Shown piece by piece: positions 12,461 through 30,239 of a stretch of DNA of 30,239 nucleotides. The stretch is taken from the IMG/VR virus record IMGVR_UViG_3300019886_000019, positions 1-30,239 of that record; one strand, written 5' to 3'. Made by a program: the position numbers and the translations under genes. Source of the DNA: a virus. Positions within the stretch are counted from its first letter, which is position 1. The number at the start of each line of letters is the position of its first letter. A model generated the notes under the pieces. It was not told the origin of the DNA. It made no database searches and was given only the letters and a program-made list of their open reading frames with translations.

Positions 12461-14839
12461 ATGACAAAGCTTGAGCAAAATTTTAGTGAGTCGCTTCGGT
12501 TTCTGAAGTGGCTCTACCCCAACGGTCCGTGGTTCCTCGTGGCCATCAGATACTCGAAGACCGGTGCTCTGCCGAGCAGGAAGTTCCGTCCCGGACAGGA
12601 GGGAGAGATGCTCGCGTGGCTCGACGAACACTCCGACAAGAATCTCTACTATCACGTCAATCTCGCCGCAGATCATGTCAGCGATAAGCACGCCGCGAAG
12701 TCCGAGATCGCTCAGGTCCGCTTTCTCCAGATAGATTGCGACCTGCGAGTCGGCGAGGATCCGGAGACTGGCAGAGCCAGAGTCACCGCGGCCGTCGAGA
12801 AGTACACGCGAAGACCGTCCGCGCTGATCTACTCCGGCGGAGGAGTCAACGCGCTCTGGCGTCTGGATCGCGAGATCGAGATGATCGCGGGCGCGGAGGG
12901 CGAACCTCTCCTCGAGAACATCGAGGGACGGAACAAGCAGCTCGCCGCTGATCTCGAGGGCGACAACTGTCACGACATCAGCCGTATCCTGCGACTCCCG
13001 GGCACGATCAATCGCCTGAACAAGGATAAAGTCTCCAGGGGACGAGTCCCCAGCGAGTCTTCCATCATCTGGCTCGAGCCAACGACCTATGACTTCGTTA
13101 CGTTCGCGTGCTCTCCTCTGTCGCCGAGGAATCAGACGACGTCGTCCTCGCGAGTCAGCACCGACGTCGAGCGGACCGAGTCCATCGACTCTTTGTCCGG
13201 AAAGGGCGGAGACGTCCCGGAGCGAGTGAAGATCATCATCAGTCAGGGCCACGACCCGGACAAGGCGTGGAACGGCGATCGCTCGAGCGCTCTGCACTTC
13301 GTCTGCTGCGAGCTGATCCGCTGCGGAGTGCCGGACCGCGTGATTCTGGGAATCATCACGGACTCCCGCTATCGCATCAGCGAGTCCGTTCTGGACAAGG
13401 GCTCGCGCGTAAGCGCGTACGCGCTTCGACAGATTCAGCGAGCGAAGGAGAAAGCTTTCGACCCGAAGCTTCTCGAGATGAACGATCGCTACGCCGTAAT
13501 CGAGGACTACGGCGGTCACTGCATGGTGATGATCACGGATCGCGACAATCCCAGGAAGTTTCGGTTTCAGCGACCGCGCGAGTTCGCCATGGGTCGCGAC
13601 AACGAGAAGAAGGTCTGGAAGCATCCGCTCAAGCCGGACAAGGACGTCATCCTCGGCGTCGGCTCGTGGTGGCTGGATCAGCGAATGCGTCGTCAGTACG
13701 AGCACGTCGTGTTCGAGCCTGGAGTCGACACACCAGGCGACCTGAATCTGTGGCAGGGATTCGCCGTCGAGCCGCGTCTCGGAGATCTGCATCGCGGATA
13801 TCTCGACCACGTCTTCGTGAATATTTGTTGCGGAAACCAGGAGCGATACGAGTATCTCGTCAAGTGGATGGCTCGCGTGGTTCAGCACCCTAACACTCAG
13901 TCGGGCGTCGCCGTGGTCCTCCTGGGCTCGCGCGGAACGGGCAAGAGCTTCTTCGCCAATCAGTTCGCGAAGATCTTCGGGATTGGACAGCACGCGTTTG
14001 TGGCGAGCGACGACAGGCTAATCACCGGACGGTTCAACTCTCACTTGTCGGCGATAGTTCTGCTCCTTGCCGAGGAGGCCTTCGACATCCGCGACAAGCG
14101 ACACGAGTCCGTGCTCAAGGAGCTGATCACCGGCGAGGCGCTCGCTGTCGAGCGAAAGGGCGTGGACGTCAGTCAGATGCGGAACTACGTCCACCTGATC
14201 ATGACCTCGAACAACGAGAAGGTGATTCCCGCTGGAGATCACGAGCGTCGGTTCCTCGTGCTGCGAGTCGGGGAGTCGGTCAGGCAGTCGACGGAGTACT
14301 TCGGTCAACTAGCTCAGAGCATGAAGTCCGGTGGTCTGGAGAATCTGCTTCACCATCTGCTCAGCATCGACCTGACGGGCTTCGACGTCTTCAAGATCCC
14401 GACGACCGCGGAGCTGCGCGAGCAGCAGGATCACAACCTGTCGCGCGAGGACGACTGGCTCTGGTCGCGTCTGGAGGCCGGCAGCTGGTTGTCGTCGAGC
14501 TTTGACTCGTCAATGAGAGCGCGAACCGCTCGGATCTCGTGGACAGGGCCGGTGATCAAGGAGATTCTGTATCAGGAGTACCTCGGCGCCATGACTTCGC
14601 TCAACGTCGGGAGACCGATGAGCTCTCGTCAGTTCACCAAGTGGCTCAAGCGAGCGCTTCCCGGCACGACGGACAAGCAGATGTCTCCGCTGCCTGACGG
14701 CTCTCGTCCGTGGATGTTCGTGTTTCAGGATCTGGAGAAGTGCCGAAGCGCGTTCGCGGCTCAGCGCGGAAGACTGGACTACGAGTGGCCCGAGACCATC
14801 GAGGATGACGGAGTGCGCAATCCGGAGATCTTCTCGTGA
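12461..14839 (+). CDS. Primase-helicase (AEP-type primase fused to D5-like SF3 helicase)
   Basis: A 792-aa replication protein. The N-terminal part is an archaeo-eukaryotic-type primase: metal-binding Asp92-x-Asp94 in FLQIDCDL, the SGGGVNALWRL strand near 125, and DISRILRLPGTIN near 175. The C-terminal part is a superfamily 3 helicase: Walker A GSRGTGKS near 488-496, Walker B LLLAEEAFD near 535, and motif C MTSNNEKV near 578, followed by an Arg finger candidate HERRFLVLRV. Such fusions open the origin and lay primers. I prefer ATG 12461 to an in-frame TTG at 12437. It is the first gene behind two promoter-like elements. Confidence 0.88.
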   Translation: MTKLEQNFSESLRFLKWLYPNGPWFLVAIRYSKTGALPSRKFRPGQEGEMLAWLDEHSDKNLYYHVNLAADHVSDKHAAKSEIAQVRFLQIDCDLRVGEDPETGRARVTAAVEKYTRRPSALIYSGGGVNALWRLDREIEMIAGAEGEPLLENIEGRNKQLAADLEGDNCHDISRILRLPGTINRLNKDKVSRGRVPSESSIIWLEPTTYDFVTFACSPLSPRNQTTSSSRVSTDVERTESIDSLSGKGGDVPERVKIIISQGHDPDKAWNGDRSSALHFVCCELIRCGVPDRVILGIITDSRYRISESVLDKGSRVSAYALRQIQRAKEKAFDPKLLEMNDRYAVIEDYGGHCMVMITDRDNPRKFRFQRPREFAMGRDNEKKVWKHPLKPDKDVILGVGSWWLDQRMRRQYEHVVFEPGVDTPGDLNLWQGFAVEPRLGDLHRGYLDHVFVNICCGNQERYEYLVKWMARVVQHPNTQSGVAVVLLGSRGTGKSFFANQFAKIFGIGQHAFVASDDRLITGRFNSHLSAIVLLLAEEAFDIRDKRHESVLKELITGEALAVERKGVDVSQMRNYVHLIMTSNNEKVIPAGDHERRFLVLRVGESVRQSTEYFGQLAQSMKSGGLENLLHHLLSIDLTGFDVFKIPTTAELREQQDHNLSREDDWLWSRLEAGSWLSSSFDSSMRARTARISWTGPVIKEILYQEYLGAMTSLNVGRPMSSRQFTKWLKRALPGTTDKQMSPLPDGSRPWMFVFQDLEKCRSAFAAQRGRLDYEWPETIEDDGVRNPEIFS

Positions 14840-15319: not shown

Positions 15320-15534
15320 TCTACGAGCACTTTCGATCCAGAGAGAGATACAGGGTCGTCTGGTCGGCCACCGACGCGACGAACGACAGCGACAGATCGC
15401 AGTACGTCGTCTACATGTCGATGAAGACCGGCGAAGTCTACGTCAGGAGAGCGAACGAGTTCCACGGAGACGTCGTGGTCTCGCTCGGCGCTCGTCAGAC
15501 TACGGTGAAGCGGTTCGCCCAGGTGACGCCGTGA
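15316..15534 (+). CDS. DUF1653-like small protein, 72 aa
   Basis: ATG 15316 overlaps the previous stop as ATGA. The pattern IYEHFRSRERYRVV...ATDATNDSDRSQYVVYMSMKTGEVYVR...F...V with a final RF pair follows the DUF1653 layout: Y-x-H/F-x-x-x-x-Y-x-V, an acidic segment, VVY, then V-R-x-x-x-x-F. DUF1653 proteins are short beta-barrel-like proteins of unknown biochemical role found in bacteria and phages. Length fits the family. Confidence 0.65.
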   Translation: MIYEHFRSRERYRVVWSATDATNDSDRSQYVVYMSMKTGEVYVRRANEFHGDVVVSLGARQTTVKRFAQVTP

Positions 15535-16139
15535 GCGCTCGCATCGACATATCAGGCCAGACATTCGGGCGTCTTAGGACCATAGAGCATGTCGAAAAAT
15601 CGCTCTGGGCTTTTGAGTGCGAATGTGGGGGAATGATAATCACTAGGAGCGAGTACGTTCGTAGTGGTCACACGAAGTCGTGCGGATGTCTGCGACGTGA
15701 GATGATCACAGCGTCCAGCACAACTCACGGTATGTCTCACTATCCGGGATATTGGCGATGGAAGAATGTGATCAATAGGTGCTTCAACGAAAAGGATCCT
15801 GATTATCCTAACTACGGCGGACGCGGAATCACGGTCTGCGAACGGTGGAAGTCATTTCCGCTCTACTGGGAGGACATGGGAGCGCCTCCTGAGGGAATGC
15901 AGCTCGAGCGCGAGGACAACGATGGAAACTACGAGCCGGGAAACGTCGTCTGGGCGACGCCGCTCGAGCAGGCGCAGAACCGTAGACCAAAGTACAATCA
16001 GTTTGGAACCAACGATCTAATTCAGGAGATTCGTGGTCGGCACGAGCATGGTGAGTCGTACAAGTCGATCGCAGCGCGGGTAGACTTAACGTATCACTAC
16101 GTCTACAAGGTCGTGAAGAACGCGAGGTGGCGCGAATGA
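15531..16139 (+). CDS. HNH-like homing endonuclease family protein 1, with C-terminal helix-turn-helix
   Basis: A 202-aa member of the phage family defined by YGGRGI-x-VCERW and DNDGNYEPGN-x-x-WAT-x-x-EQ. Residues 8-58 form a Cys-containing module (GQTFGRLR; ECECGG; SCGCL) common at the N-terminus of these proteins. The core is residues 68-152. A C-terminal segment, SYKSIAARVDLTYHYVYKVVKN, looks like a helix-turn-helix that could give site specificity. The start GTG overlaps the DUF1653 stop, and the stop overlaps the SNF2 helicase ATG, so it was inserted without breaking either. Codons are more AT-rich than neighbours. Nuclease activity is inferred from the family. Confidence 0.8.
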   Translation: MSARIDISGQTFGRLRTIEHVEKSLWAFECECGGMIITRSEYVRSGHTKSCGCLRREMITASSTTHGMSHYPGYWRWKNVINRCFNEKDPDYPNYGGRGITVCERWKSFPLYWEDMGAPPEGMQLEREDNDGNYEPGNVVWATPLEQAQNRRPKYNQFGTNDLIQEIRGRHEHGESYKSIAARVDLTYHYVYKVVKNARWRE

Positions 16140-17968: not shown

Positions 17969-18803
17969 GTCGCCCGCCGATCGCCAGGTGCAGAAGGAGA
18001 TGGAGCGGAGGAGGAAGGAGCTTGAGAAGAGTCAGCGTCCGCCGAAGAGATGGGAGACGAAGGAGGACAAGCGGATGCGCAAGGAGCACGAGAAGGGTCT
18101 GTTTCCGAACAACACTGCCGACACGCCGAACGGATCGAGGAAAGAGTCGTTCTACGGCATCGACCGCGGAGTCTGCGAGTACGATCCGCGAGCGAATCCA
18201 CATCCGTCGTGCAGGTGCGCGATTCACGCGTGGACTCAGCAGTACCAGAATCCCGACTATCGGTGGTATCACGGCTTCATCGTTCCGACGTTTCCCACGG
18301 ATCCGATCGGCTACTTCGCTCCCAAGGGAGGACGATCGGTCTCACACGAACTGAGGGTCACGGGCGTTCGCTCGGACAGTCTGCTGCCGGATCGAGTCGA
18401 GTCACTCTACTGCGACAACTGTCGACTCGCGATCTCCAGCCGAGGTCTGCTTGATCCAAGGAAGAATTCGTGGAGCACTCCAGACGTCTGGTTCGGCTTC
18501 CCTCGTCCGTCGGCGAGATCGCCAGAGAGTTCCGCCGAGCTGGACGCGCATCGCTCGTTCGATCTGCAGACGCAGAGATTCCACACGACGCGACGAGTGA
18601 TCGTCAGCGAGACCACGAACTCCAGGGTCTATAGCAAGAAGCCGAAACAATTCGAGCAGGAGCCGGACTGGTGTCAGTCGCTCGGCTGGTGTCTCTTCAA
18701 CGTCTGCGCTCTCGCCGCGGTGCTCGCGGACAAGGACGCGCGCGATCACTGGTGGAACGCGATGTCCGTGTGGCTCGATCAATGGGAGGTGACGTATGGT
18801 TGA
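17961..18803 (+). CDS. Hypothetical Cys/His/Trp-rich protein, 280 aa
   Basis: Overlaps the SNF2 stop by 8 nt. The N-terminal 45 residues are a basic, charged helix (KEMERRRKELEKSQRPPKRW). Then follow a Cys/His segment CEYDPRANPHPSCRCAIH, LYCDNCRLAI as a second possible zinc pair, and a C-terminal Trp-rich helical region (WCQSLGWCLFNVCALAAVL). No family is recognised. Its coupling to the helicase suggests joint expression. The two Cys/His sets suggest metal binding. Confidence 0.7.
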   Translation: MSRSPADRQVQKEMERRRKELEKSQRPPKRWETKEDKRMRKEHEKGLFPNNTADTPNGSRKESFYGIDRGVCEYDPRANPHPSCRCAIHAWTQQYQNPDYRWYHGFIVPTFPTDPIGYFAPKGGRSVSHELRVTGVRSDSLLPDRVESLYCDNCRLAISSRGLLDPRKNSWSTPDVWFGFPRPSARSPESSAELDAHRSFDLQTQRFHTTRRVIVSETTNSRVYSKKPKQFEQEPDWCQSLGWCLFNVCALAAVLADKDARDHWWNAMSVWLDQWEVTYG

Positions 18804-19371
18804 TATCACTGGACGACGATACAATCTGCTCGTCGCGTTGTCTCACGATCAAGGGACTCACTGGTTCTTCCAGTGCGACTGTGGGAACGTAAAATCCATC
18901 AACGCGAAGAACGTGACGAGATCCAATCCAGGAACGAAGAGTTGCGGATGCGTCGGTAGCGCGATTTCCTCCGCGAGGATGACTGAATACGCTTCTACAC
19001 ACAAACCAGCGCTGAAGCATGGATGGGTTGGAACACTTGTCTACGCTCGATGGAACGCGATGATGTGCCGATCTGGACGATCCCTGAGCGTGAACAATCC
19101 ATACTACGCGGGTCGAGGTATTGTCGTGTGTGAGCGATGGAAGATCTTTGAGAATTTCTTGGAGGACGTGTTGCGTGAAATCGGAGACTGTCCTGGTGAT
19201 GGGTACACACTGGATCGCAAGGAGAACGACGGAAACTATGAACCAGGAAATATTCGATGGGCGACGATGAAAGAACAGAGAACGCATCAGCGAGCACGAT
19301 GCTGCACGAATTGCGGATCTGTTGATCACGTTCGCAGTAATCCAAACTGTCCGCTCTATGGAGCTACGTGA
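18796..19371 (+). CDS. HNH-like homing endonuclease family protein 2, with C-terminal zinc knuckle
   Basis: A 191-aa protein of the same family as that at 15531. The N-terminal module has FFQCDCGN and SCGCV. The core carries YYAGRGIVVCERW and ENDGNYEPGNIRWAT. The C-terminus adds CTNCGSVDHVRSNPNC, a C-x2-C-x4-H-x6-C variant of a zinc knuckle. ATG 18796 overlaps the previous stop by 8 nt, and its TGA abuts the next ATG by one base. GC falls relative to neighbours and the start of the next gene is also AT-shifted. Nuclease function is inferred. Confidence 0.8.
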   Translation: MVDITGRRYNLLVALSHDQGTHWFFQCDCGNVKSINAKNVTRSNPGTKSCGCVGSAISSARMTEYASTHKPALKHGWVGTLVYARWNAMMCRSGRSLSVNNPYYAGRGIVVCERWKIFENFLEDVLREIGDCPGDGYTLDRKENDGNYEPGNIRWATMKEQRTHQRARCCTNCGSVDHVRSNPNCPLYGAT

Positions 19372-20018: not shown

Positions 20019-20974
20019 GCGATCCGCACAACGGTGAGGAGAGCGACGGCGTCGGATACGGCGACGGAGCGCTTGACGATCAGCCGGCTCGCCGTTCCGA
20101 TCCTCGCAACAACGCTGACGACGCGTACACGGCGTTCATGAGCATGGGCGGCGACGAGTGGCAGGGTCTGCTCAAGTCGCTGATGGGCGGCGGAGTGCTC
20201 CAGGTCGAGGAGAAGAAGGGCTTCGACCGCGCTCTGCAGGAGCGTACGACGCTGAAGTCGGTCGCTGATGCGCGCGAGGCTGTGAAGCCGTTTGACTTCG
20301 CTCCTAGTCCGGTCGGCGTCGGGCCTCTGCCTCGCGACGAGAATGGTCGTCTCGTTTCGTCAATCAGTGAGTCTCAGCAGGAAGCTCGCGTTCACACCGA
20401 GGTCATGAAGCGAATGGTTCCTCGCTACGACGAGGAGGTCGCTCCCCGCGAGGACGGCATGAGGCGTCTCCAGGCGCTCGTCCTCCAGATGTCCGTACTC
20501 GAGCTGAAGAAGCTGGATCTCGAGGCCGACTTGGAGAAGACGCAGAAGGAGCTTCGCGTCTACTCCGAGAGTCTCGTCCCGGAGATGATGAGCGAGCTGG
20601 GCGTGACTCTCATGCGGACAGCCGGAGGCGCCGAGGTCGAGCTGAAGGAGGATCTCCGCGCGAGCTTCCCCAAGGACGAGGGACGACAGGCTCAGGCGTT
20701 CGCGTGGCTTCGTCAGTCAGGTAACGACGGCATCATCAAACGGGAGATCACCGTTCAGTACGGGCGGGACTCCACGGAGTGGGCCGATCAGCTCGTGCTC
20801 GCGCTCGAGAAGATGGGCGTCTCGGAGCATGGTGTCGTCACGCAGGAGTGGAACATCCATCATCAGACTCTGCTTTCGTTCCTCCGGACCGAGATCAAGG
20901 AGGGACGTCCGGTGCCGATGGAGGCGTTCGGGGCCGTGATTCAACGAATGGCGAAGATTAAGCGACGAAAATGA
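20015..20974 (+). CDS. Coiled-coil phage protein of the replication module, 319 aa
   Basis: GTG 20015 overlaps the 56-aa gene. The first 100 residues are acidic and Gly-rich; residues 150-195 form a coiled coil (LVLQMSVLELKKLDLEADLEKTQKEL). Then comes MMSELGVTLMRTAGGAEVELKEDLRASFPKDEGRQAQAFAWLRQSGNDGIIKREI, a pattern common in phage proteins next to single-strand-binding proteins, where a short beta segment is followed by a helical hairpin. Biochemical role is unknown; recombination or replication accessory is my inference from context. Confidence 0.7.
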   Translation: MSDPHNGEESDGVGYGDGALDDQPARRSDPRNNADDAYTAFMSMGGDEWQGLLKSLMGGGVLQVEEKKGFDRALQERTTLKSVADAREAVKPFDFAPSPVGVGPLPRDENGRLVSSISESQQEARVHTEVMKRMVPRYDEEVAPREDGMRRLQALVLQMSVLELKKLDLEADLEKTQKELRVYSESLVPEMMSELGVTLMRTAGGAEVELKEDLRASFPKDEGRQAQAFAWLRQSGNDGIIKREITVQYGRDSTEWADQLVLALEKMGVSEHGVVTQEWNIHHQTLLSFLRTEIKEGRPVPMEAFGAVIQRMAKIKRRK

Positions 20975-21555
20975 ATACTCCAGTTCACATCGCGGAACAG
21001 CAGTTTGGTCGACTACTCGTCTTAGGCCGAGCAGGGACACGAACGTGGTTCTGCTTCTGTGACTGCGGAGAAATCACGGAAGTTGCGACATCGAATTTGC
21101 TCAGTGGAAAGACCAAGAGCTGCGGATGTCTTCGTAGCGAGATGGTCGCCGCTAAGAACTTTAAGCACGGACATTCTCTTCTGAGTTCAGGAGCATACCG
21201 CTCTTGGACCGCAATGTGGCATCGCATACGGAATTTCGAGGAATACTCACATCTCACGGTTTGCGAACGCTGGCTCTTATTTGAGAATTTCTACAGAGAT
21301 ATGGGAGATCGACCAGAAGGTCTCACTATCGAACGAAACAACAACGACCTCGGCTACGAGCCGACGAACTGCCGATGGGCAACGCGTGTCGAGCAGAGAG
21401 CGAATCAGCGACCACGGCGCTGTTCTATCTGCGACTCGCTCACTCACACGGCGAATCACTGCAACGTCACTCACCCTGGGCATTCCGCCCAGGGAACCAA
21501 GAAAACCGAAGAAGAAGAAGCGAAGGAAACTCAAGATGGCAAAAGCGAAGACTGA
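20971..21555 (+). CDS. HNH-like homing endonuclease family protein 3, with C-terminal zinc knuckle
   Basis: A 194-aa member of the local HNH-like family. It has the N-terminal Cys module (CFCDCGE; SCGCL), a core with LTVCERW and ERNNNDLGYEPTNCRWAT, and a perfect C-x2-C-x4-H-x4-C knuckle at Cys151, Cys154, His159 and Cys164. The usual YGGRGI block is shortened to FEEYSHL here. A Lys/Glu-rich tail follows, encoded over the start of the next gene (20-nt overlap), perhaps an artefact of insertion. ATG overlaps the previous stop. Confidence 0.78.
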   Translation: MNTPVHIAEQQFGRLLVLGRAGTRTWFCFCDCGEITEVATSNLLSGKTKSCGCLRSEMVAAKNFKHGHSLLSSGAYRSWTAMWHRIRNFEEYSHLTVCERWLLFENFYRDMGDRPEGLTIERNNNDLGYEPTNCRWATRVEQRANQRPRRCSICDSLTHTANHCNVTHPGHSAQGTKKTEEEEAKETQDGKSED

Positions 21556-22414: not shown

Positions 22415-22511
22415 GATCCTCTCCTCTAACTGGCAAGAGCAGAAGCGGAGTGTCGCCGCTCGCGGCGATGCAGGACGCACCTGAATCCTGGTTCAACTCC
22501 AGGGAGGATCA
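22415..22511 (+). tRNA. tRNA-like element with aberrant anticodon region (possible tRNA pseudogene)
   Basis: A 97-nt element. Acceptor arms GATCCTC (22415-22421) and GAGGATC (22504-22510) pair over 7 of 7 positions. The D-arm (22424-22439) has a 4-bp stem and loop AACTGGCA with A14, purine 15, G18-G19 and A21. The T-arm (22487-22503) is CCTGG-TTCAACT-CCAGG, matching TTCRANY. A discriminator A is followed by CCG rather than CCA. Between D- and T-arms are 47 nt forming TCGCCG/CGGCGA and CAGG/CCTG hairpins; no anticodon arm with a paired 5-bp stem and a CT-NNN-R loop exists. CTCGCGG offers an imperfect arm (anticodon CGC), with CAGGACGCACCTGAAT as a class II-like variable arm and 13 extra nt. 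Function as a tRNA is doubtful. Confidence 0.55.
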
Positions 22512-22521
22512 CCGAAAGGCT

Positions 22522-22860
22522 ATGAGCACGCTTTCCTCCATACGAGAAGTTCTCGAGCGCTTTCAGCAGGCGTCCGGCGTGGATCCTCACGTCGGTCACA
22601 CGCTCATCGTGGACGTCTCGGGCGCGAACTACATCCTGAGGGAATTCTTCTTCGGGAAGCTTCCTCAGGGCGTCGTTGTCACGAGCGAGCCGGACGAGCT
22701 GGTCTGCGTCGACGGCATTCCGGTGAAGCTTCGCTACGAGTCACCGGTGTACGGACACGCGTTCATCATCCCGAATTCTCACGTACCTGCGCGCACGTGC
22801 TGCGACTGCGCGAGCATGGCGACGCTGATGTGCACGTTCGCGAGGGGAGCGACGGGATGA
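22522..22860 (+). CDS. Hypothetical protein, 112 aa
   Basis: I chose ATG 22522 because the frame upstream runs through the tRNA-like element and GAAAGG lies just before this ATG. The protein starts with an amphipathic helix (MSTLSSIREVLERFQQA), then beta-rich sequence (HTLIVDVSGANYILREFFFG, GVVVTSEPDELVCVDGIPVKL), and ends with a Cys-rich helix TCCDCASMATLMCTF. No family recognised. The stop overlaps the GIY-YIG gene as ATGA. Confidence 0.62.
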   Translation: MSTLSSIREVLERFQQASGVDPHVGHTLIVDVSGANYILREFFFGKLPQGVVVTSEPDELVCVDGIPVKLRYESPVYGHAFIIPNSHVPARTCCDCASMATLMCTFARGATG

Positions 22861-23579
22861 AGCTAGAATTATCAAACCATGATATGAGATTGACGCAGTT
22901 ATTCATTCGATACGTGATACTTCGTCAGTGGGGCGAGCATGAGCAGGCAGACCTGATTCGGGATTATCTAGACGCCGAGTACTGCCAAGACGACGACTGG
23001 TACGATCTGGTAGATCCAAGAACTTCACTAGTGCGATACATTGGTCTCGCTATTAGTGATAAGCGTCCTCGCCAGCACCGTGCCTGTCTGAATCCACTGT
23101 GGAATAGACAAGCGACGCATAAGACGAACTGGATTCAGGAGCTTGCGAATGCGGGATTCGACTATGAAATCTGTGTTCTTGAAGAGTGCGAAGAACATGA
23201 GTTGCGTGAAAAAGAAATCTGGTGGATCGCGTACGGCCGCGCTTGCGGATGGCCACTGACGAATCTCACAGACGGCGGCGATGGACTACTGAATCCATCC
23301 GAAGAAACTCGAGCCAAACTCAGCCAAGCCGCGAGCAATCGCAAGCTTTCTGAAGAAACTAAGGCAAGGATCGGTGCCGCCGGAATCGGCAACACTCATC
23401 TTACTGGTCACAAGCATTCGGATGAAACTCGCGATCGAATGAGCGTCGCCGCGATGGGCAAGAAGCTTTCTCCAGAGCATAGAGCTAAGATCGCGATTGC
23501 TTCTACCGGTCGGCGACACTCAGTGGAAACGAAGTTGAAGATCGGTGAGGCTTCGAAGAAGCGAATGGTGACGTCTTGA
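22857..23579 (+). CDS. GIY-YIG homing endonuclease with NUMOD3 repeats
   Basis: A 240-aa protein from ATG 22857. The GIY-YIG nuclease domain is about residues 55-140: RYIGLAISD replaces the usual second half of the motif, followed by an R-x-x-H segment and the catalytic-Glu helix LREKEIWWIAYGR. From residue 150 come four NUMOD3-like DNA-binding repeats of the type S-E-E-T-[RK]-A-[KR]-[LI]-x-x-A. This is the SegA/I-TevI-like layout of free-standing phage homing endonucleases. It overlaps the upstream gene by ATGA and the helicase downstream by TTGA. The first 120 bp of that helicase share its low GC. Confidence 0.88.
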   Translation: MKLELSNHDMRLTQLFIRYVILRQWGEHEQADLIRDYLDAEYCQDDDWYDLVDPRTSLVRYIGLAISDKRPRQHRACLNPLWNRQATHKTNWIQELANAGFDYEICVLEECEEHELREKEIWWIAYGRACGWPLTNLTDGGDGLLNPSEETRAKLSQAASNRKLSEETKARIGAAGIGNTHLTGHKHSDETRDRMSVAAMGKKLSPEHRAKIAIASTGRRHSVETKLKIGEASKKRMVTS

Positions 23580-24898
23580 ACTGGAGTCCTCAACAGGATC
23601 AAGCTCTGGTTCTGGTCGCTGATTGGATGAAGTCTTCTAGTCAAACTTTTTTCCTTAGTGGCTTTGCTGGTACTGGAAAATCAACGCTCGCAAAGTATCT
23701 CGCTGATCCGTTAAGGTGGAGATACGCGAGCTACACTGGCAAGGCGAGCCACGTTATGCGCCAGAAGGGATGCGCGGACGCGACGACAATTCACAGTTTG
23801 ATCTACCGGCCGGCCGGCGAGTCGAAGTCGAGCGAGATTGCTCTACTCACACAGCGAATCGAGCAGCTGGAGCGCAAGGAGCGCTCACTTCATCACGGGC
23901 TCGTCGAGCGGAACGTAGTTCTTCTCTCCCCGAAGGACGCCGAGGAGCTAAAGACGCGTCGCGCTCAGCTCGCCAAGGTATCGGCGGATAATCAACCTCG
24001 CTTCCAGCTCTGGGCGAACAGTCCGCTGGCGGATCCGAACATCGACGGCATTGTCATCGACGAGTGCTCGATGATCGACCAGTATCTCGGTCGCGACCTG
24101 GAGAGCTTCGGGAAGAAGATTCTGGTGCTCGGTGATCCCGCTCAGCTTCCTCCGGTCGGCGCGGGAGGATACTTTACGAATCGAGATCCAGATTTTCATT
24201 TGTCTGAGATTCATCGTCACGCGCGCGAGTCCGGAATTCTCAGGCTCGCCACCGAAATTCGCGAGGGCAAGAGCATTCGCACCTGGGCGGACCGGGGACG
24301 CGACCCTCAGGTGAGAGAGTGGGAGGACTCCGGACAGGCCGACGTCGTCGTCAGGCGACGCGGCGACTGGGACATCCAGGACCTGCAGATGTGCGTCCTC
24401 GCGGCAGACCAGGTTCTCGTGGGTCGCAACGCGACCCGCCGGACGGCGAATCGCCGTCACAGAGAGATGCTCGGTCGCACGGACCCCATGCCGGTGCCCG
24501 GGGATCGGCTCGTCTGTCTTCGCAACGACCGCGAGCTGGGTCTCTTCAACGGTGCTCAATTCGTCGTCCTCGCCGCGGACTGCGATCCCGGCTCCAGGAC
24601 CGCCGAGCTGAGGCTCGTGGACGAGGACGGTCGCGAGCTGTCCGTGTGCTCCTGGCTTCATCATCTCATCGGCGGCGACGACGCGATTCGTGACCTGACG
24701 GACATGGGTCCGCGTCGTCGCGATCTCGCTGAGATGGACTATGCGTATGCCCTCACCGTCCATAAATCGCAAGGTTCGCAGTGGAAAGATGTTCTGGTTT
24801 TTGATGAAAGCGCTGCTTTTGGTTCTGAAGTTGGTCGGCGTTGGATCTATACAGCTATTACTCGTGCTTCTGAAAAACTAACTGTGGTGATTCCTTGA
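23576..24898 (+). CDS. RecD/Dda-like superfamily 1B DNA helicase
   Basis: A 440-aa protein starting at TTG 23576 overlapping the GIY-YIG stop. Walker A GFAGTGKST is residues 29-37, then TGKAS (Ia), Walker B GIVIDECSMID near 160, motif III LVLGDPAQLPPV, and C-terminal motifs YALTVHKSQGSQWKDVLVFDE and RRWIYTAITRASEKL (V-VI). This matches T4 Dda and RecD-like helicases, 5'-to-3' motors used at phage forks and in recombination. Both gene ends are less GC-rich than the middle (40-50% and about 42% against 68% by hand count of short stretches), next to homing-endonuclease genes on both sides. Confidence 0.92.
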   Translation: MNWSPQQDQALVLVADWMKSSSQTFFLSGFAGTGKSTLAKYLADPLRWRYASYTGKASHVMRQKGCADATTIHSLIYRPAGESKSSEIALLTQRIEQLERKERSLHHGLVERNVVLLSPKDAEELKTRRAQLAKVSADNQPRFQLWANSPLADPNIDGIVIDECSMIDQYLGRDLESFGKKILVLGDPAQLPPVGAGGYFTNRDPDFHLSEIHRHARESGILRLATEIREGKSIRTWADRGRDPQVREWEDSGQADVVVRRRGDWDIQDLQMCVLAADQVLVGRNATRRTANRRHREMLGRTDPMPVPGDRLVCLRNDRELGLFNGAQFVVLAADCDPGSRTAELRLVDEDGRELSVCSWLHHLIGGDDAIRDLTDMGPRRRDLAEMDYAYALTVHKSQGSQWKDVLVFDESAAFGSEVGRRWIYTAITRASEKLTVVIP

Positions 24899-25449
24899 GT
24901 GGCGATAGCAACAGATGCTCCTCATGCGGTGAAATAGGACATAATCGTCGTAGATGTGTTGATCTCGCGTGCCTTGTAATTGGAACCAGATTTGGTGAAT
25001 GGACTCTTCAGTCTCTTCCAGAAAACGGGCGTGATCTATTTTGGGACGTACGTTGTGACTGCGGTACTGAAGCCTTTGTTAACAGAAAGAATTTAATGAT
25101 TGGAGTCAGCGCTTCATGTGGGAAGTGTCTGCATACTGGAGATCAATATCTTCCAATCAAGAAACCGCAGTTCATTCATGGAATGACTGGAACACCGACG
25201 TGGAATAGTTGGAACAGTATGCTTCGTCGTGCTGGAAAGCATCCCAGATATTTGACCATAGGTGTGTATGAACCGTGGCGAGCCGAATTTCTTAAGTTCC
25301 TTAAGGATATGGGTGAACGACCTGAAGGAACCTCTATAGATCGCTATCCTGATGAATTTGGCGACTATCTGCCGTGGAACTGTCGATGGGCGACGCCAGT
25401 CGAGCAGCAGAACAACCGACGACCAAATGGATTCTGGAGGCAATCGTGA
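24895..25449 (+). CDS. HNH-like homing endonuclease family protein 4, with N-terminal zinc knuckle
   Basis: A 184-aa protein from TTG 24895 (TTGA overlap). Here the knuckle is at the N-terminus: Cys8, Cys11, His16, Cys21 in CSSCGEIGHNRRRC, perfect C-x2-C-x4-H-x4-C. Next is the Cys module (VRCDCGT; SCGKC) and the core with VYEPWRAEFLKFLKDMGERPEG and DEFGDYLPWNCRWATPVEQQNNRR; the usual GGRGI-x-VCERW is diverged. The gene has about 47% GC in a counted 60-nt stretch, far below neighbours, indicating recent arrival. The stop overlaps the next GTG. Confidence 0.78.
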   Translation: MSGDSNRCSSCGEIGHNRRRCVDLACLVIGTRFGEWTLQSLPENGRDLFWDVRCDCGTEAFVNRKNLMIGVSASCGKCLHTGDQYLPIKKPQFIHGMTGTPTWNSWNSMLRRAGKHPRYLTIGVYEPWRAEFLKFLKDMGERPEGTSIDRYPDEFGDYLPWNCRWATPVEQQNNRRPNGFWRQS

Positions 25450-26357
25450 AACTTCTCAACGAATTCTACGCGTTCATGCGCGAGCGGGAGACCATCAGGC
25501 TGCGACGTCGCGCCGGTCTGCCCAGGGATCAGTGGACGACCGACCCAATCATGAGGACGTATAGCTTCACGAACGTGAAGCGGGAGCACGATCGGACGAC
25601 CGTTGGCCTGCTTCCGTTGTACCGCGCGCATTTGTGGATTCACGCCGAGCGATCGCCGGAGACGATGCGAGCACTCATGCTCAACTGCGCTCTGTATCGT
25701 TACTTCGGCACCGTCGAGATGGCGACGGCGATCGGATGGGTCCAGGAGTGGACCGAGGAGCAGTCGTCGCGGATTCAGCAGCTCGCGGACGACCGCATGC
25801 TCCTGGGCGAGACGGTCTTCACGAGCGCGTACATCGTCCCGAACTGCGGAAGCACGCTCCCGAAGCATACGATCGTCTGCCAGATCATGGGAGAGCTGTG
25901 GGACGCGCTTCCGGAGGTACTGAGCTTCGGGAGCTGGAAGCTCATGTGCGATCGCCTGTGCGAGATCTGGGGCGTCGGTCCGTTCATGGCGAAGGAGATT
26001 CTGCTGGACTACATCCTGGCGACCGAGTGGGAGCCGAACGACTGGCTCTACTGGACGCCGGTCGGTCCCGGAGGCAAGCGCGGCGCCTCGCGCGTCGCCT
26101 ACGGAGCGATCGAGAACGTGACGCCGGACGAGGCCATCGGAATCATCAGGGAGATCTACGCTGTCTGCGCCGATCACTGGCGACACGATCTGTTCGACCA
26201 GAGTGTCGTCGGCGCCGAACCGATAGTCGAATTGGCGTTGACGGACATCCAGTTTCAGCTCTGCGAGTTCGACAAGTACTCGCGCGTCGCCGAGGGACGG
26301 AAGCCGAAGCGAAACTTCCGGCCGACCGTGGACAACGTGACGCGGGACGCGAAGTGA
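25446..26357 (+). CDS. 5-hmdU DNA kinase helical-domain / aGPT-pyrophosphorylase-like protein
   Basis: A 303-aa protein from GTG 25446. Residues 7-52 hold the signature of the helical family named for thymine hypermodification (HMUDK_hel, alpha-glutamyl/putrescinyl-thymine pyrophosphorylase): FYAFMRERE, LRRRAG, WTTDP at 30-34, and FTNVKREHDRTT at 41-52. Further on are a helix-hairpin-helix-like WGVGPFMAKEILLDYIL and GPGGKRGASRV, as in other members. Family proteins are known or proposed to act on 5-hydroxymethyl-dU in DNA after kinase activation, swapping pyrophosphate for an amine or amino acid. Two P-loop kinases lie downstream. The family call is from remembered motifs; the exact modification is unknown. 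Confidence 0.78.
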   Translation: MKLLNEFYAFMRERETIRLRRRAGLPRDQWTTDPIMRTYSFTNVKREHDRTTVGLLPLYRAHLWIHAERSPETMRALMLNCALYRYFGTVEMATAIGWVQEWTEEQSSRIQQLADDRMLLGETVFTSAYIVPNCGSTLPKHTIVCQIMGELWDALPEVLSFGSWKLMCDRLCEIWGVGPFMAKEILLDYILATEWEPNDWLYWTPVGPGGKRGASRVAYGAIENVTPDEAIGIIREIYAVCADHWRHDLFDQSVVGAEPIVELALTDIQFQLCEFDKYSRVAEGRKPKRNFRPTVDNVTRDAK

Positions 26358-26797
26358 ACAAGTCGCTGATGATCAAGCAGGGATACGTTCCCTCGACGTG
26401 TGTCCTCCACGAGGATCTCGCGGGCGTTCTGATCTGGGCGGAGATTCTCATGGGTCGCGATCCGTGCGCCGGATGCAATCACGATCGCGCGGTCTGTCGC
26501 GGACGACCGAACACGGTCGCGCTGAAGAAAAGCTTCGGTCCGGGTCCGGAGAACGATCTCGCTCGCCTCGGGCGAGAGGACGCGAATCGCGAGGAGATCC
26601 GGAAGCACGAGGAGCGACTCGCCGAGGATCGCGAGAGGCTGAGGCGCGAGGACGAGGTCTACGGAAAGATCCACGGACTTCACGAGGTGATCAATGAGGA
26701 GTCACGACATGCCGAGACGCGTTATTGCTGGAAAGAAGAAATTCATCCTTCGTTATCGCGTCGGCGCGAAGCTGAGGCGCACGATATACCGCGATGA
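26354..26797 (+). CDS. Hypothetical Cys-cluster / coiled-coil protein, 147 aa
   Basis: GTG 26354 overlaps the previous stop by GTGA. Residues 38-49 contain CAGCNHDRAVC, a possible metal site, followed by a charged coiled coil (EEIRKHEERLAEDRERLRREDEVYGKIHGL). The last 35 residues overlap the next gene by 89 nt, unlike the 4-nt overlaps around it. A frame change near 26690 would end the protein at TGA 26695-26697, so an indel or frameshift is possible. No family is recognised. Confidence 0.6.
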   Translation: MNKSLMIKQGYVPSTCVLHEDLAGVLIWAEILMGRDPCAGCNHDRAVCRGRPNTVALKKSFGPGPENDLARLGREDANREEIRKHEERLAEDRERLRREDEVYGKIHGLHEVINEESRHAETRYCWKEEIHPSLSRRREAEAHDIPR

Positions 26798-26876
26798 GAT
26801 CTTCATCGGCATCATGGACAGTGCGACCGAGGCGCAGAAGGTCGTGGATCTTCTGAATCTGTACGGAGGGAGGTAG
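26709..26876 (+). CDS. Small basic protein, 55 aa
   Basis: I chose ATG 26709 because TGAGGAG lies 7 nt upstream; an in-frame ATG at 26694 is the alternative. The peptide is basic at the start (MPRRVIAGKKKFILRYRVGAKLRRTIYRDE) and ends in a helix (SATEAQKVVDLLNLYGGR), a beta-then-helix layout like small DNA-binding proteins. No family is recognised. Confidence 0.58.
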   Translation: MPRRVIAGKKKFILRYRVGAKLRRTIYRDEIFIGIMDSATEAQKVVDLLNLYGGR

Positions 26877-26878
26877 TC

Positions 26879-27103
26879 ATGGCGACGAAGATGAGCGAGC
26901 AGGACCTCATCGACTGTCTGCCGATCGCCGACGCGATCGTCGCGACCGTCGCCACCGACAACGTCCGTCCGCCGTGTGCAGTCGCCGCCGTGGCCCGAGC
27001 GCTCGCGGCGGTCGCAATTCTCGCCGAGTGCTCGGATCAGGCTGCGATTGATCTCTTTAAGCATTTTCACAAGGAACTGTCGCGGCGAGGGACGATCTCG
27101 TGA
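26879..27103 (+). CDS. Small Ala-rich helical protein, 74 aa
   Basis: ATG 26879 follows GGAGGGAGG, a strong ribosome site. The product is largely helical with an Ala/Val-rich middle (AVAAVARALAAVAILAECSDQAAIDLFKHFHKEL) that is only moderately hydrophobic. The stop overlaps the T5orf172 gene by GTGA. No family is recognised. Confidence 0.65.
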   Translation: MATKMSEQDLIDCLPIADAIVATVATDNVRPPCAVAAVARALAAVAILAECSDQAAIDLFKHFHKELSRRGTIS

Positions 27104-27504
27104 TCGTAGTTTCAGTTTATTTCATCGCGACCAAGACCATGTCGCATGTGAAAATCGGACAGACAACGAGTCTTCCAAACCGATTCAGGGAATTAGCGAA
27201 CTCACAGCCGACAACTGACGCTCTTGTTCTGCTGTTTGCGGTTGAAGCCCCAAGAGCGCTGGAGCAGTATTTCCATGATAAGTGGAAGAAGTTCCGAACA
27301 CACGGTGAGTGGTTCGTATTGGACGAGTCGATCATCAAGTGGATAGAATCCGCGAAGGAAGATCTAGGCCACCTATTGGCTGAGTTGTCTAGCGACAAAG
27401 AAGTTGATCTAAGTCAGTGTCGATATTGTCTCGTAACTAGGCCGAAACGTTACAAGCCGAAGCATCACAGGTGGTGTCCTGACTACCCAACTGGGAGGCG
27501 CTAG
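27100..27504 (+). CDS. T5orf172 / MUG113-type (GIY-YIG-like) nuclease domain protein
   Basis: A 134-aa protein from GTG 27100. It shows the T5orf172 pattern: VYFIATK, HVKIGQT, LPNRFREL, LLFAVEAPRALEQYFHDKWKKFRTHGEWFVL. This is a compact relative of the GIY-YIG nuclease fold, found in phage T5 and in mobile genes. The C-terminus adds CRYCLVTRPKRYKPKHHRWC, a possible zinc finger. Composition is AT-shifted like the other homing-type genes, and it sits before a structured non-coding stretch. Probably a mobile endonuclease; no target is known. Confidence 0.78.
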   Translation: MIVVSVYFIATKTMSHVKIGQTTSLPNRFRELANSQPTTDALVLLFAVEAPRALEQYFHDKWKKFRTHGEWFVLDESIIKWIESAKEDLGHLLAELSSDKEVDLSQCRYCLVTRPKRYKPKHHRWCPDYPTGRR

Positions 27505-27635
27505 GTGGCGCCTGGTAAGTGCGCGGCTGGGGGTGCCACCACACTGCACCCCACCCGGTTTAACGCAGCCTCGGGCAAGCCAGAGGCCTTACAGCGCACG
27601 CCACGGGTACGCGGCGTGGTGGCTGGGGGTGCGGC
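27505..27635 (+). other. GC-rich, highly folded intergenic region
   Basis: 131 nt without a convincing gene. Possible stems: GGGGTGC/GCACCCC (27530-27536 with 27546-27552), GCCTC/GAGGC (27568-27572 with 27583-27587), CACGCC/GGCGTG (27597-27602 with 27613-27618), and GTGCGC/GCGCAC (27519-27524 with 27594-27599), which competes with the third. A direct repeat GGCTGGGGGTGC lies at 27525-27536 and 27621-27632. It may be a leader RNA for the phosphatase-kinase genes or a small non-coding RNA. No tRNA or known riboswitch pattern is seen. Confidence 0.4.
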
Positions 27636-28094
27636 GTGAAAGTCCTCTTCGTCTGCCACGGAAACATCAATCGCTCGGCCGCTGCGGAGATCATTCTTCG
27701 CCAGACGCGTCCCGAGATTGAGGTCGCCTCGTGCGGATTCGCCAGGGACGGAGCGATCACGGCGCGACGCATGAGAGAGGCTCTCAGGATCTCCGGATAC
27801 GAGCAGACGAGCCTGGTCTCGCGCAAGATCTCGAGCGAGCTGGTCCACTGGGCGGACGTCGTCTACTACATGGACAACGGGAACCAGATTCGCCTGATTC
27901 GCCAGTTCGGCCAGAACCCGAAGTTCGTGCGGATCACCACGCTCTGTCCGGATCTCGGGTTAGACAGGGTGCCGGATCCACACTTCTATCGCGGAACCAA
28001 CGGAGTCGCCACTGCTCACAACGACTACGTGATGCATCTGCGGGTCATAGAGATTCTCGAGCACTGTCTGTCGCAGATACCGGAGTCAACGTGA
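27636..28094 (+). CDS. Low-molecular-weight protein tyrosine phosphatase-like protein
   Basis: A 152-aa protein from GTG 27636. MKVLFVCHGNINRSAAAE is the LMW-PTP P-loop: Cys7-x5-Arg13-Ser14. A C-terminal D-P segment (DPHFYRG near residue 113) matches the general-acid loop. The fold also includes arsenate reductases, and typical members hydrolyse phosphotyrosine through a Cys-phosphate intermediate. Length is normal for the family (about 150). The stop overlaps the kinase start by GTGA, so phosphatase and kinase are translated together. The substrate could be a protein or a phosphorylated nucleotide; nothing in the sequence decides. Confidence 0.85.
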   Translation: MKVLFVCHGNINRSAAAEIILRQTRPEIEVASCGFARDGAITARRMREALRISGYEQTSLVSRKISSELVHWADVVYYMDNGNQIRLIRQFGQNPKFVRITTLCPDLGLDRVPDPHFYRGTNGVATAHNDYVMHLRVIEILEHCLSQIPEST

Positions 28095-28744
28095 CCAAGC
28101 AGATTCTTCACATCTTCGGCGAGCCGGGAGCCGGCAAGTCCACTCTCGTTCGCCGCCTCATCGCCGACACCGGCGGAATCGGAAAGTGGATCGCGTGCGA
28201 GCCGGGACCGCTCGTGCGCGGTCACTTCAACGACGAGCACAAGATCTTCCTGCTGGGTCGCTACGACGAGGAGCAGAATCCGTATCCCGGACTCGACCGT
28301 CTCGCGCAGAACTGTCAGCCGAACGTCGAGATCTTCGTGCGAGACACTCCGTACTCCGTGCTCGTCGAGGGCGACAAGCTGAGCAACGCGAAGTTCCTGC
28401 GACATCTGCAGTCGTTCACGCAGCACTTCAGACTCCTGGGCGACTCGCGTGAAATGACTGGTCACGCCGCGCAGCGACACGGCGACCGAGTGCCGGATGT
28501 CAACCAACACGCGCATCTCTGGATTCTCCATCTCACAGTCTCGCAGACGGCTCTGGGTGAGCGTCGCCGAGCGCGAGGCGACGACCGCGCGAACTCGTTC
28601 TACAAAGGTCGGGCGACGAAATACGCGAACATGCTTCGGGAGTTTCGCGTTCAGTCGTGGCCGAACGAGACGTACGAGCAGCAGTCGAGGACGTACGCGA
28701 ACATTCGCGCATTCCTCGGGATTCCACCGTCGGAGGGACAGTAA
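28091..28744 (+). CDS. P-loop kinase, candidate 5-hmdU DNA kinase
   Basis: A 217-aa protein from GTG 28091. Walker A GEPGAGKST is at residues 10-18. Further along are IFLLGRYDEEQNPYPGLDRLAQNCQP, VLVEGDKLSNAKFL near 96-109, and an Arg-rich lid-like segment ERRRARGDDR followed by SFYKGRATKYANML. The E-G-D-[KR]-L and K-G-R-x-T-K motifs are those I associate with phage P-loop kinases in DNA-hypermodification clusters. In such pathways the kinase phosphorylates 5-hydroxymethyl-dU in DNA to an activated pyrophosphate. Presence of the helical-domain protein 2 kb upstream supports this. Nucleotide or other small-molecule kinase is the alternative. Confidence 0.68.
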   Translation: MTKQILHIFGEPGAGKSTLVRRLIADTGGIGKWIACEPGPLVRGHFNDEHKIFLLGRYDEEQNPYPGLDRLAQNCQPNVEIFVRDTPYSVLVEGDKLSNAKFLRHLQSFTQHFRLLGDSREMTGHAAQRHGDRVPDVNQHAHLWILHLTVSQTALGERRRARGDDRANSFYKGRATKYANMLREFRVQSWPNETYEQQSRTYANIRAFLGIPPSEGQ

Positions 28745-28745
28745 C

Positions 28746-29414
28746 ATGAATCAAGATACTGAGTTGGCAGAAATTCGCGCGTCCATCGAGTGGCTCTCGG
28801 GAGGCGGCAAGAAGCTCGCCCCTGGAGCCCGATACAACGGCATCTACGGAACGATGACGCTTTCCGGACTGGACGACATGGTCGCCGTCCGCGACACTAG
28901 ACAGCGATTCGCGGACTTCGGCGTTCCCGAGGATCTGTGGGGCAAGACGTGGATCGACGTCGGCGCCAACGTCGGGGCATGCGCGCTCGAGGCCGCGCGT
29001 CGTGGAGCGACGACGGTCGGCGTCGAGTACCGACAGGATCGGGTCGATCTCTGCAATCGCATCGCCGCGTCGCCCAGGTGGAGGATCGGGTCGTCCCGAT
29101 TCTTTCAGGCCGACCTGAATCATCTCGACGCGACGCCGAATACTTGGAGGACGCCGACGTACGACTACGTCTGGTCCACAGCGGTTGACAATTACTTAGA
29201 CTGCAGACCGAACTACTATCAACTCTTGAAATCACTGATGTCTCCAGACTCCGGCGTACTCTTTTATGAGTGCAACGTGCGTCGTGGGGGAGCTACCGAG
29301 GCCGAGGCTCGGGGATGGTTAGGTGAAGCCGGGTTCGCGCAAGAGAAGATAGAGTTTCTAGGAACAGGCTCCTGTCCGTTCCTAAAACGAAAGATCTATA
29401 GAGTCACGGTATGA
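28746..29414 (+). CDS. Class I SAM-dependent methyltransferase
   Basis: A 222-aa protein from ATG 28746, one base after the kinase stop. Motif I is WIDVGANVGACALEAARRG (Asp71 to Gly77), with Glu94 in VGVEY binding the SAM ribose, then a motif IV-like segment YDYVWSTAVDNYL and strand VLFYECNV. It lacks the N/D-P-P-Y/F motif of N6-adenine and N4-cytosine methylases and the Pro-Cys of C5-cytosine methylases, so it is not an ordinary restriction-type DNA methylase. The target may be a small molecule, RNA or a modified base. About the last 250 bp are low in GC, next to an HNH-like gene. Confidence 0.8.
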   Translation: MNQDTELAEIRASIEWLSGGGKKLAPGARYNGIYGTMTLSGLDDMVAVRDTRQRFADFGVPEDLWGKTWIDVGANVGACALEAARRGATTVGVEYRQDRVDLCNRIAASPRWRIGSSRFFQADLNHLDATPNTWRTPTYDYVWSTAVDNYLDCRPNYYQLLKSLMSPDSGVLFYECNVRRGGATEAEARGWLGEAGFAQEKIEFLGTGSCPFLKRKIYRVTV

Positions 29415-29818
29415 TTCCTAATCACGCTGGCACGCACAACGGTAGATATCGTCACGGCATGGCAGGGACCAGAATCTATCAAGTCTGGGCGACCATGATT
29501 CAGCGTTGCCAGAATCCGCTTGCCGTTTCGTACAAGAACTACGGAGGCAGAGGCATCGCAGTCTGCGAACGCTGGCGTGATTTCATTAATTTCTACGCCG
29601 ACATGGGAGATCCTCCGGAAGGAAAGACGCTGGATCGTTTCCCAGACAACGATGGAAACTACGAGCCAGAAAACTGCCGATGGGCGACTCGGGAGGAACA
29701 GATGGAAAATCGTCGTAAATCAGTTCACTCATGCAGCAACTGCGGGTCTACTGAACACATGGCTTGTGGAGCCACACATTGGAAATTCGCAGGTGGAAGA
29801 GCAAGGGATCACGCATGA
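29411..29818 (+). CDS. HNH-like homing endonuclease family protein 5 (minimal form with Cys tail)
   Basis: A 135-aa protein from ATG 29411 (ATGA overlaps at both ends). It lacks the N-terminal Cys module of its four relatives and consists of the core only: NYGGRGIAVCERW, FYADMGDPPEG, DNDGNYEPENCRWAT, EEQMENRR. The C-terminus has CSNCGSTEHMAC, a C-x2-C-x4-H-x2-C near-knuckle. It sits between the methyltransferase and the second kinase without disrupting either. Endonuclease function is inferred from the family. Confidence 0.78.
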   Translation: MIPNHAGTHNGRYRHGMAGTRIYQVWATMIQRCQNPLAVSYKNYGGRGIAVCERWRDFINFYADMGDPPEGKTLDRFPDNDGNYEPENCRWATREEQMENRRKSVHSCSNCGSTEHMACGATHWKFAGGRARDHA

Positions 29819-30239
29819 TCATCAACATCCGAGGCACTCACGGCTCAGGCAAGTCGACGCTGGTGCGACGCGTGCGGGATCTCTACGACGGTCAGCGACC
29901 GATGATGATCCCGAAGCGTCAGCGACCCCTGGGCTACGCCTGCACATCGTCGATGGTTGGTCCGAATCCGCGTCTTCCACCACTGTTCGTCGTCGGCTCG
30001 TATGAGACGCCGACGGGAGGATGCGACACCATCGGAAGCATCGAGCAGATCTTCGAGCTGGTGACGACGATGGCCGAGCACTCGCACGTCCTGTTCGAGG
30101 GAATCGTGGCTCAGCACTCGGCCGGACGTCTGCTCGACGTCGCGCTCGCTCGCCCCGGCGAGGTGACGGTGATCGCGCTGAGCACGCCGTCCGAGATCTG
30201 CGTCTCGTCCGTCGAGCATCGACGGCTGGAGCGCGGCGA
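29815..30239 (+). CDS. P-loop kinase-like ATPase, partial at the right edge
   Basis: The first 141 codons of a gene from ATG 29815. Walker A GTHGSGKST is residues 7-15. Then VVGSYETPTGGCDTIGSIEQIF and a Walker B-like strand HVLFEGIV follow. The GSY-x-x-x-x-GGCDTI pattern defines a family of phage P-loop proteins resembling small kinases. With the kinase at 28091 it makes two distinct P-loop kinases in one cluster. It may act on modified bases or nucleotides. The C-terminal lid is outside the window. Confidence 0.7.
   Translation, partial: MIINIRGTHGSGKSTLVRRVRDLYDGQRPMMIPKRQRPLGYACTSSMVGPNPRLPPLFVVGSYETPTGGCDTIGSIEQIFELVTTMAEHSHVLFEGIVAQHSAGRLLDVALARPGEVTVIALSTPSEICVSSVEHRRLERG

Follow-up and report, generated by a model that had tools for sequence, protein, structure and literature searches.

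A candidate thymidine-hypermodification operon with a low-molecular-weight phosphatase in a tailed-phage genome fragment

Phage DNA is protected by hypermodified thymidines that are built via interchangeable tailoring genes, and their assembly by mix-and-match enzymes is known. In the DNA of M6-type phages, 5-hydroxymethyldeoxyuridine (5-hmdU) is phosphorylated by a DNA kinase and then altered (PMC6449724; PMC9476957). The window analysed here is an entire IMG/VR record (IMGVR_UViG_3300019886_000019), a linear virus fragment of 30,239 bases whose plus strand ends in a related cluster. An earlier note on this DNA proposed a 5-hmdU-type cluster for base hypermodification, made of five open reading frames (ORFs) that are all present where it placed them: an HMUDK_hel protein (HEL), a low-molecular-weight (LMW) phosphatase (LMWP), two P-loop kinases (KIN1 and KIN2) and a methyltransferase (MT). 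Profile searches confirm the HMUDK_hel protein, and the partner genes recur in independent phages. The cluster is probably (about 0.7, judged from gene families and gene order) the 5' portion of an operon for hypermodifying thymidine in a tailed phage, in which LMWP would remove phosphate from intermediates.

The phosphatase and its partners in other phages

LMWP (27636..28094, plus strand) is a true member of the LMWPc family (PF01451, 54.2 bits against a cut-off of 23.2), as its earlier description as LMW-phosphatase-like suggested, and belongs to a phage-specific subfamily. Its catalytic residues are intact, comprising the CX5R loop CHGNINRSA and the Asp general acid in VPDPHF. The loop of the viral subfamily is CHGNINRS versus CHGNICRS in cellular enzymes; with the second loop Cys of cellular LMW phosphatases replaced by Asn in the phage members, the usual disulfide redox protection is lost.

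A first search, with a two-sequence alignment of the LMWPs of the window and phage Simon, gave 34 viral loci, and profiles from a few of these were run across all ORFs to define architectures. Loci were gathered partly via the peptide VCHGNIN, so that the signature was selected and the neighbourhoods were not. There are 48 LMWP loci besides the window, on 46 distinct contigs, some of them near-identical. An amidoligase is encoded in 47 of the 48, normally directly upstream of LMWP, and the last one (L114) ends at a contig edge; a TET dioxygenase occurs in 24 and ADDT, an amino acid:DNA transferase, in 40. Type A clusters, on 28 contigs (L060-L087), encode a TET/JBP dioxygenase, a class II glutamine amidotransferase (GATase), amidoligase, LMWP, ADDT and a KIN1-type kinase. 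In L061, of this type, all six domains are above their cut-offs (Tet_JBP 82 bits, GATase_6 45, Amidoligase_2 22.8, LMWPc 61.5, ADDT 71, Ploopntkinase3 27.7). Type B clusters, found in phage Simon and L088-L093, encode ADDT, amidoligase, LMWP, a KIN2-type kinase, HMUDK_hel and a protein of the thymidylate synthase (TS) family, which is preceded by Nmad5 in phage Simon. Further type B clusters came from the KIN2 scan (L114, L126, L132, L134, L135, L137, L139, L148, L158-L160).

As a control, the same family profile returned 80 LMWPs from 80 cellular loci, mostly with the CHGNICRS loop. None of these has an amidoligase, ADDT, TET, GATase, HMUDK_hel or a KIN1- or KIN2-type kinase nearby, and TS is near three. 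Since the phage genes recur together in independent phages while no cellular locus has these partners (TS aside), the cluster is beyond chance. In the LMWP tree the phage subfamily stands apart from the cellular proteins (99/98), and the window LMWP, whose end branch is long (1.19), groups with type A (99/94). An LMWP match in Acinetobacter 'phage MD-2021a' is an ordinary Wzb on an apparent host contig and was rejected; used as a control query, it retrieved nothing related from viruses.

The closest solved relatives of LMWP are protein phosphatases, including the arginine phosphatase YwlE, and LMWP could target phosphotyrosine or phosphoarginine in proteins of the infected host and only travel with modification genes. 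This is unlikely, as the phage subfamily is separate and 47 of the other 48 loci have an amidoligase, in operon-like contact across unlike clusters, a context found around none of the 80 cellular LMWPs. LMWP most likely acts on a phosphate of the pathway, as its gene neighbourhoods suggest. The earlier view of the phosphatase as an outsider to the characterised pathways holds for its biochemical step, which seems to have no place in the known pathways, but not for the gene, which is a recurrent cluster member beside the amidoligase.

The helical protein, the kinases and the methyltransferase

HEL (25446..26357, plus strand) belongs to HMUDK_hel (PF18723; E 8.2e-38, 130.8 bits, cut-off 25), as had been thought. 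It was also labelled aGPT-pyrophosphorylase, a label that spans two Pfam families: PF18723, now HMUDK_hel ('5-hmdU DNA kinase, helical domain'), and PF18724, now ADDT ('amino acid:DNA transferase'), which appear in deposited genomes as aGPT-Pplase1 (the SN1 and Pam3 orthologues) and aGPT-Pplase2, respectively; of the two, the window contains HMUDK_hel alone. HEL is probably the helical partner of 5-hmdU DNA kinases, serving DNA or base recognition. It has relatives in 37 viral loci, the best with 47% identity. The view that HMUDK_hel alone proves a kinase pathway was dropped: both HEL and TS were called in 34 relatives, of which 30 carry a glycosyltransferase (TAGT-like PF20691 or GT4-like) in the interval and only two a Walker A kinase. 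The helical domain may therefore serve 5-hmdU glycosylation too, which would make its Pfam name too narrow. The relatives L004-L038 have HMUDK_hel and TS, mostly without a kinase, and sometimes add a radical SAM enzyme, an FkbM methyltransferase or an epimerase. In L024, an HMUDK_hel-methyltransferase-KIN2-TS cluster has a sulfotransferase (13972-14655; PF00685, 42 bits) a short way past TS, and a sulfated base is conceivable there.

KIN2 (29815..30239, plus strand) is cut by the contig end. It is 46% identical to gp49 of PaMx11, a kinase directly upstream of HMUDK_hel and TS, and its match to HMUDK_HMUD1 is 15.9 bits on the truncated ORF, below the cut-off of 27. The three genes KIN2, HMUDK_hel and TS are adjacent in PaMx11 and Ab18; Pam3 and RHph_I65 keep this order with a single small gene intervening. 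Across 91 KIN2 loci (profile seeds included), HMUDK_hel is found in 80, TS in 76 and ADDT in 63. By homology KIN2 is a candidate 5-hmdU DNA kinase, orthologous to the PaMx11-like kinase upstream of HMUDK_hel-TS. PaMx11 gp49, Ab18 ORF12, Cr30 gp114 and others are named 'terminase small subunit' in RefSeq, which is also the name of phrog_800; these proteins look like P-loop kinases, several of them located in hypermodification clusters. The Caulobacter phage Cr30 kinase was set aside as a relative, its match being weak and no modification context being seen.

KIN1 (28091..28744, plus strand) is a P-loop kinase of the TET/ADDT-cluster type. It is 31-36% identical to the type A kinases and keeps the Walker A and EGD motifs. 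Against PF18751 (Ploopntkinase3) it reaches 18.8 bits, under the cut-off of 27 that its L061 relative passes at 27.7. Single-protein scans of viral contigs gave no relatives of KIN1; those of KIN1 and MT were found only via profiles and the KIN2 neighbourhood. Of 80 loci retrieved with the KIN1 profile, 69 have at least one of TET, ADDT, GATase and amidoligase nearby. The AlphaFold model (pLDDT, the predicted local distance difference test, 80.6) contains an insert of roughly 30 residues, about 20 of them at low confidence. Its matches in the PDB are modest (E 4e-4 to 8e-4, TM score about 0.45), with chloramphenicol phosphotransferase first and phosphoseryl-tRNA kinase third, both of which phosphorylate an alcohol. 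KIN1 is a candidate 5-hydroxymethyl-pyrimidine DNA kinase. The two P-loop kinases reported earlier are both recognised only by fold family, with specific Pfam matches under cut-off, and two kinases in one cluster are seen in 14 loci, the window among them.

Both kinases fit general AAA/kinase models no worse than specific ones, and the KIN1 model resembles small-molecule kinases. Such matches could suggest nucleotide-pool metabolism, with deoxynucleotide kinases, a phosphatase and a small-molecule methyltransferase that leave no modification in DNA. This seems very improbable, since KIN2 recurs with HMUDK_hel and ADDT, families named for action on DNA, and the orthologues in SN1/M6 are part of the cassette in phages whose thymidine is hypermodified (PMC9476957).

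MT (METHYLTRANSFERASE; 28746..29414, plus strand) is a Rossmann-fold S-adenosylmethionine methyltransferase. It falls below the curated family cut-offs (Methyltransf_23, its best Pfam match, 25.0 bits against 27; NCBIfam TIGR04290, 23.7 against 300), in keeping with its earlier description as atypical, and its AlphaFold model from a two-sequence input (pLDDT 53.9) is too poor to interpret. Single-protein scans of viral contigs and isolate phages found no relatives. One relative, about 50% identical, came via the KIN2 neighbourhood of L097 (IMG/VR 3300028812_000008), where it likewise sits between HMUDK_hel and KIN2. MT is a probable tailoring enzyme. The order in L097 is HEL-MT-KIN2-GATase-ADDT-amidoligase-TS (GATase 25.1 bits, just under cut-off; ADDT 47; amidoligase 31.7; TS 75). 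This is the nearest layout, and the window probably continues likewise past its end.

LMWP, KIN1 and MT could also be recent, roleless passengers in a degenerate or captured patchwork in which only HMUDK_hel and KIN2 function. L097, L002 and L003 have no LMWP and no close KIN1, mobile-type genes lie on both flanks, and there is the partly low-confidence insert in KIN1. On the other hand, the catalytic motifs are intact, reading frames overlap by 4 nucleotides, LMWP is long diverged yet intact, and the MT relative sits at the same place in L097, so that this explanation is doubtful. The tight translational packing of LMWP, KIN1 and MT described earlier is confirmed: LMWP and KIN1 overlap by 4 nucleotides, and KIN1 and MT are 1 nucleotide apart. 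On gene content, the window is a hybrid, a TET-type LMWP-KIN1 pair inside a TS-type cluster.

The missing hydroxymethylase and the proposed pathway

A TS-family hydroxymethylase is not encoded in the window, and the fragment stops inside the cluster, as the earlier note held when it placed the dUMP hydroxymethylase outside and called the system incomplete as seen. The sequence checks that the note proposed favour its reading as far as they could be run: HMUDK_hel is confirmed, and the enzyme sought is encoded in nearly all of the relatives. Of 25 viral contigs with an HMUDK_hel relative, 24 encode a TS-family protein, and in the mapped loci the gene lies within about 2 to 9 kb downstream of the HMUDK_hel relative. 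The motif RSND.xWGxxGANAVH keeps its Asn in 46 of 47 TS proteins examined. This residue aligns with the uracil-reading Asn177 of E. coli TS, and the CMP enzyme MilA has Asp at the aligned position, as do the dCMP hydroxymethylases. Because this Asn is conserved, the idea that the TS relatives are dCMP hydroxymethylases was rejected. The TS protein of L003 is nearer to a solved pyrimidine hydroxymethylase, the CMP enzyme MilA (9e-13), than to E. coli TS (4e-7). Since 24 of the 25 relatives encode TS, with the uracil-type Asn, truncation of the contig is the simplest reason why the window lacks it.

In the proposed pathway, a TS-like dUMP hydroxymethylase, expected just past the contig end, would supply 5-hmdU, which would replace T in the phage genome. 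The 5-hydroxymethyl group would be phosphorylated in DNA by KIN1 and by KIN2 acting with HMUDK_hel, and an ADDT would swap the phosphate for an amino acid. The amidoligase and the class II GATase may then amidate the amino acid carboxylate, and MT may methylate the amidated product. LMWP could remove phosphate from unreacted 5-phosphomethyl-dU, whose ring-CH2-phosphate could mimic a phosphoaryl group in the pocket of an LMW protein tyrosine phosphatase, or it could act on an intermediate that carries phosphate in the amidoligase step. The gene families, their close packing and joint recurrence, and the hybrid origin of LMWP-KIN1 can be read from sequence; each catalytic step, the LMWP substrate, the methyl acceptor, the final base and the occurrence of ADDT, amidoligase, GATase and TS in this genome are inferred.

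The adjacency of LMWP and KIN1 in the window favours the first of these roles, and the constant pairing of LMWP with amidoligase favours the second. Taken separately, the second would have LMWP serve the amidoligase by stripping phosphate from a joined phosphorylated amine or from a phosphorylated intermediate, unmasking the final group. The amidoligase-LMWP pair stays constant while the neighbouring kinase and ADDT vary, but in the window LMWP adjoins KIN1 with no amidoligase seen, and many KIN1 clusters and some KIN2 clusters have amidoligase without LMWP. This narrower role is a real possibility that falls short of even odds.

Several points weigh against a thymidine-hypermodification operon with LMWP as a working part. 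Both kinases score under the Pfam kinase cut-offs. By profile search, none of TS, TET/JBP dioxygenase, ADDT, amidoligase and GATase is in the 30 kb seen, which are a fragment only; in other relatives ADDT follows KIN2 in L097 and is weak in L002, and L003, among the closest genomes, has no ADDT found in its 68 kb. L097 has MT and KIN2 with neither LMWP nor KIN1, so that this pair is optional. LMWP is tied to amidoligase and not to one kinase type, and a simple reversal of the kinase fits less well. To our knowledge, there is no biochemistry for any of the five window proteins.

The new modified base suggested by the earlier note is possible and undecided, as the product cannot be read from sequence. 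A tentative proposal, perhaps a one-in-three matter at best, is that LMWP dephosphorylates a substituent of a nucleobase in DNA (or a phospho-intermediate linked to the amidoligase), which would be a step outside the pathways known to us, and that TS-based 5-hmdU, a TET-type LMWP-KIN1 pair and MT together make an undescribed base, for instance an amidated, methylated amino-acid thymidine. What appears new is the phosphatase as a recurrent, subfamily-specific amidoligase partner in two unlike routes, and this hybrid, in which a TS-type cluster contains a methyltransferase and LMWP-KIN1 of the TET type. No earlier mention of LMWP in such clusters was found in the literature searched, whose scope did not include the key papers of the pathway, and priority is not established. 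The LMWP subfamily, in these searches confined to such clusters in both TET- and TS-based routes, marks a missing biochemical step that a small set of purified proteins could test. In its loop, the replacement of Cys by Asn (CHGNINRS) is a simple marker for finding further clusters.

Neighbouring genes and comparison with described systems

The minus strand of the fragment encodes portal, terminase and head genes, and the plus strand encodes a primase, an SNF2-type helicase and a Dda-like helicase for replication. Within the cluster, the earlier note did not list three small ORFs between HEL and LMWP or the HNH gene between MT and KIN2. Two of the small ORFs (26357..27103, plus strand; 146 and 74 residues) are unassigned in function, and the 146-residue one has no Pfam family match. 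The third (27100..27504, plus strand) is a GIY-YIG-like MUG113/T5orf172 protein (PF13455, 7.7e-11; PF10544, 5.4e-8) and is probably a mobile insertion. The HNH endonuclease with a zinc knuckle (29411..29818, plus strand; phrog_374, 1e-42) overlaps MT and KIN2 by 4 nucleotides each and is probably an inserted homing endonuclease. It belongs to a homing-type family with several copies in the same fragment. Homing-type genes lie at 15531-16139, 18796-19371, 20971-21555, 22797-23579, 24895-25449, 27100-27504 and 29411-29818. Four or five of them belong to a single HNH family, in which several members carry a zinc knuckle at one end; one is a GIY-YIG-type homing endonuclease and one is the MUG113/T5orf172 protein. 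ARAGORN also calls a tRNA-Thr (tgt) at 22415-22513, which at 99 bases is unusually long and may be spurious or interrupted.

The Pseudomonas phages M6 and SN1 resemble the window in having HMUDK_hel (as aGPT-Pplase1) and a P-loop kinase, with a TS-type hydroxymethylase near PolA. They differ in their ADDT, radical SAM enzyme, pyridoxal phosphate enzyme, Nmad5 and single kinase, and lack LMWP and a window-type methyltransferase. PaMx11 and Ab18 (Abidjanvirus) provide the best isolate match of KIN2, followed directly by HMUDK_hel and TS; unlike the window, they have KIN2 before HEL, use an FAD oxidoreductase and an acetyltransferase for tailoring, and lack LMWP, KIN1 and MT. L097 shares the HEL-MT-KIN2 order and differs in going on to GATase, ADDT, amidoligase and TS with no LMWP-KIN1 pair. 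The TET/JBP clusters L060-L087 are nearest to the window in LMWP and KIN1; they differ in having no HMUDK_hel, and their 5-hydroxymethyl group presumably comes from TET/JBP oxidation in DNA and not from a TS homologue. Phage Simon (PQ683277, from raw sewage), whose LMWP is of another branch (29-35% identical) and which lacks KIN1 and MT, is a named phage with the order amidoligase-LMWP-KIN2-HMUDK_hel-Nmad5-TS.

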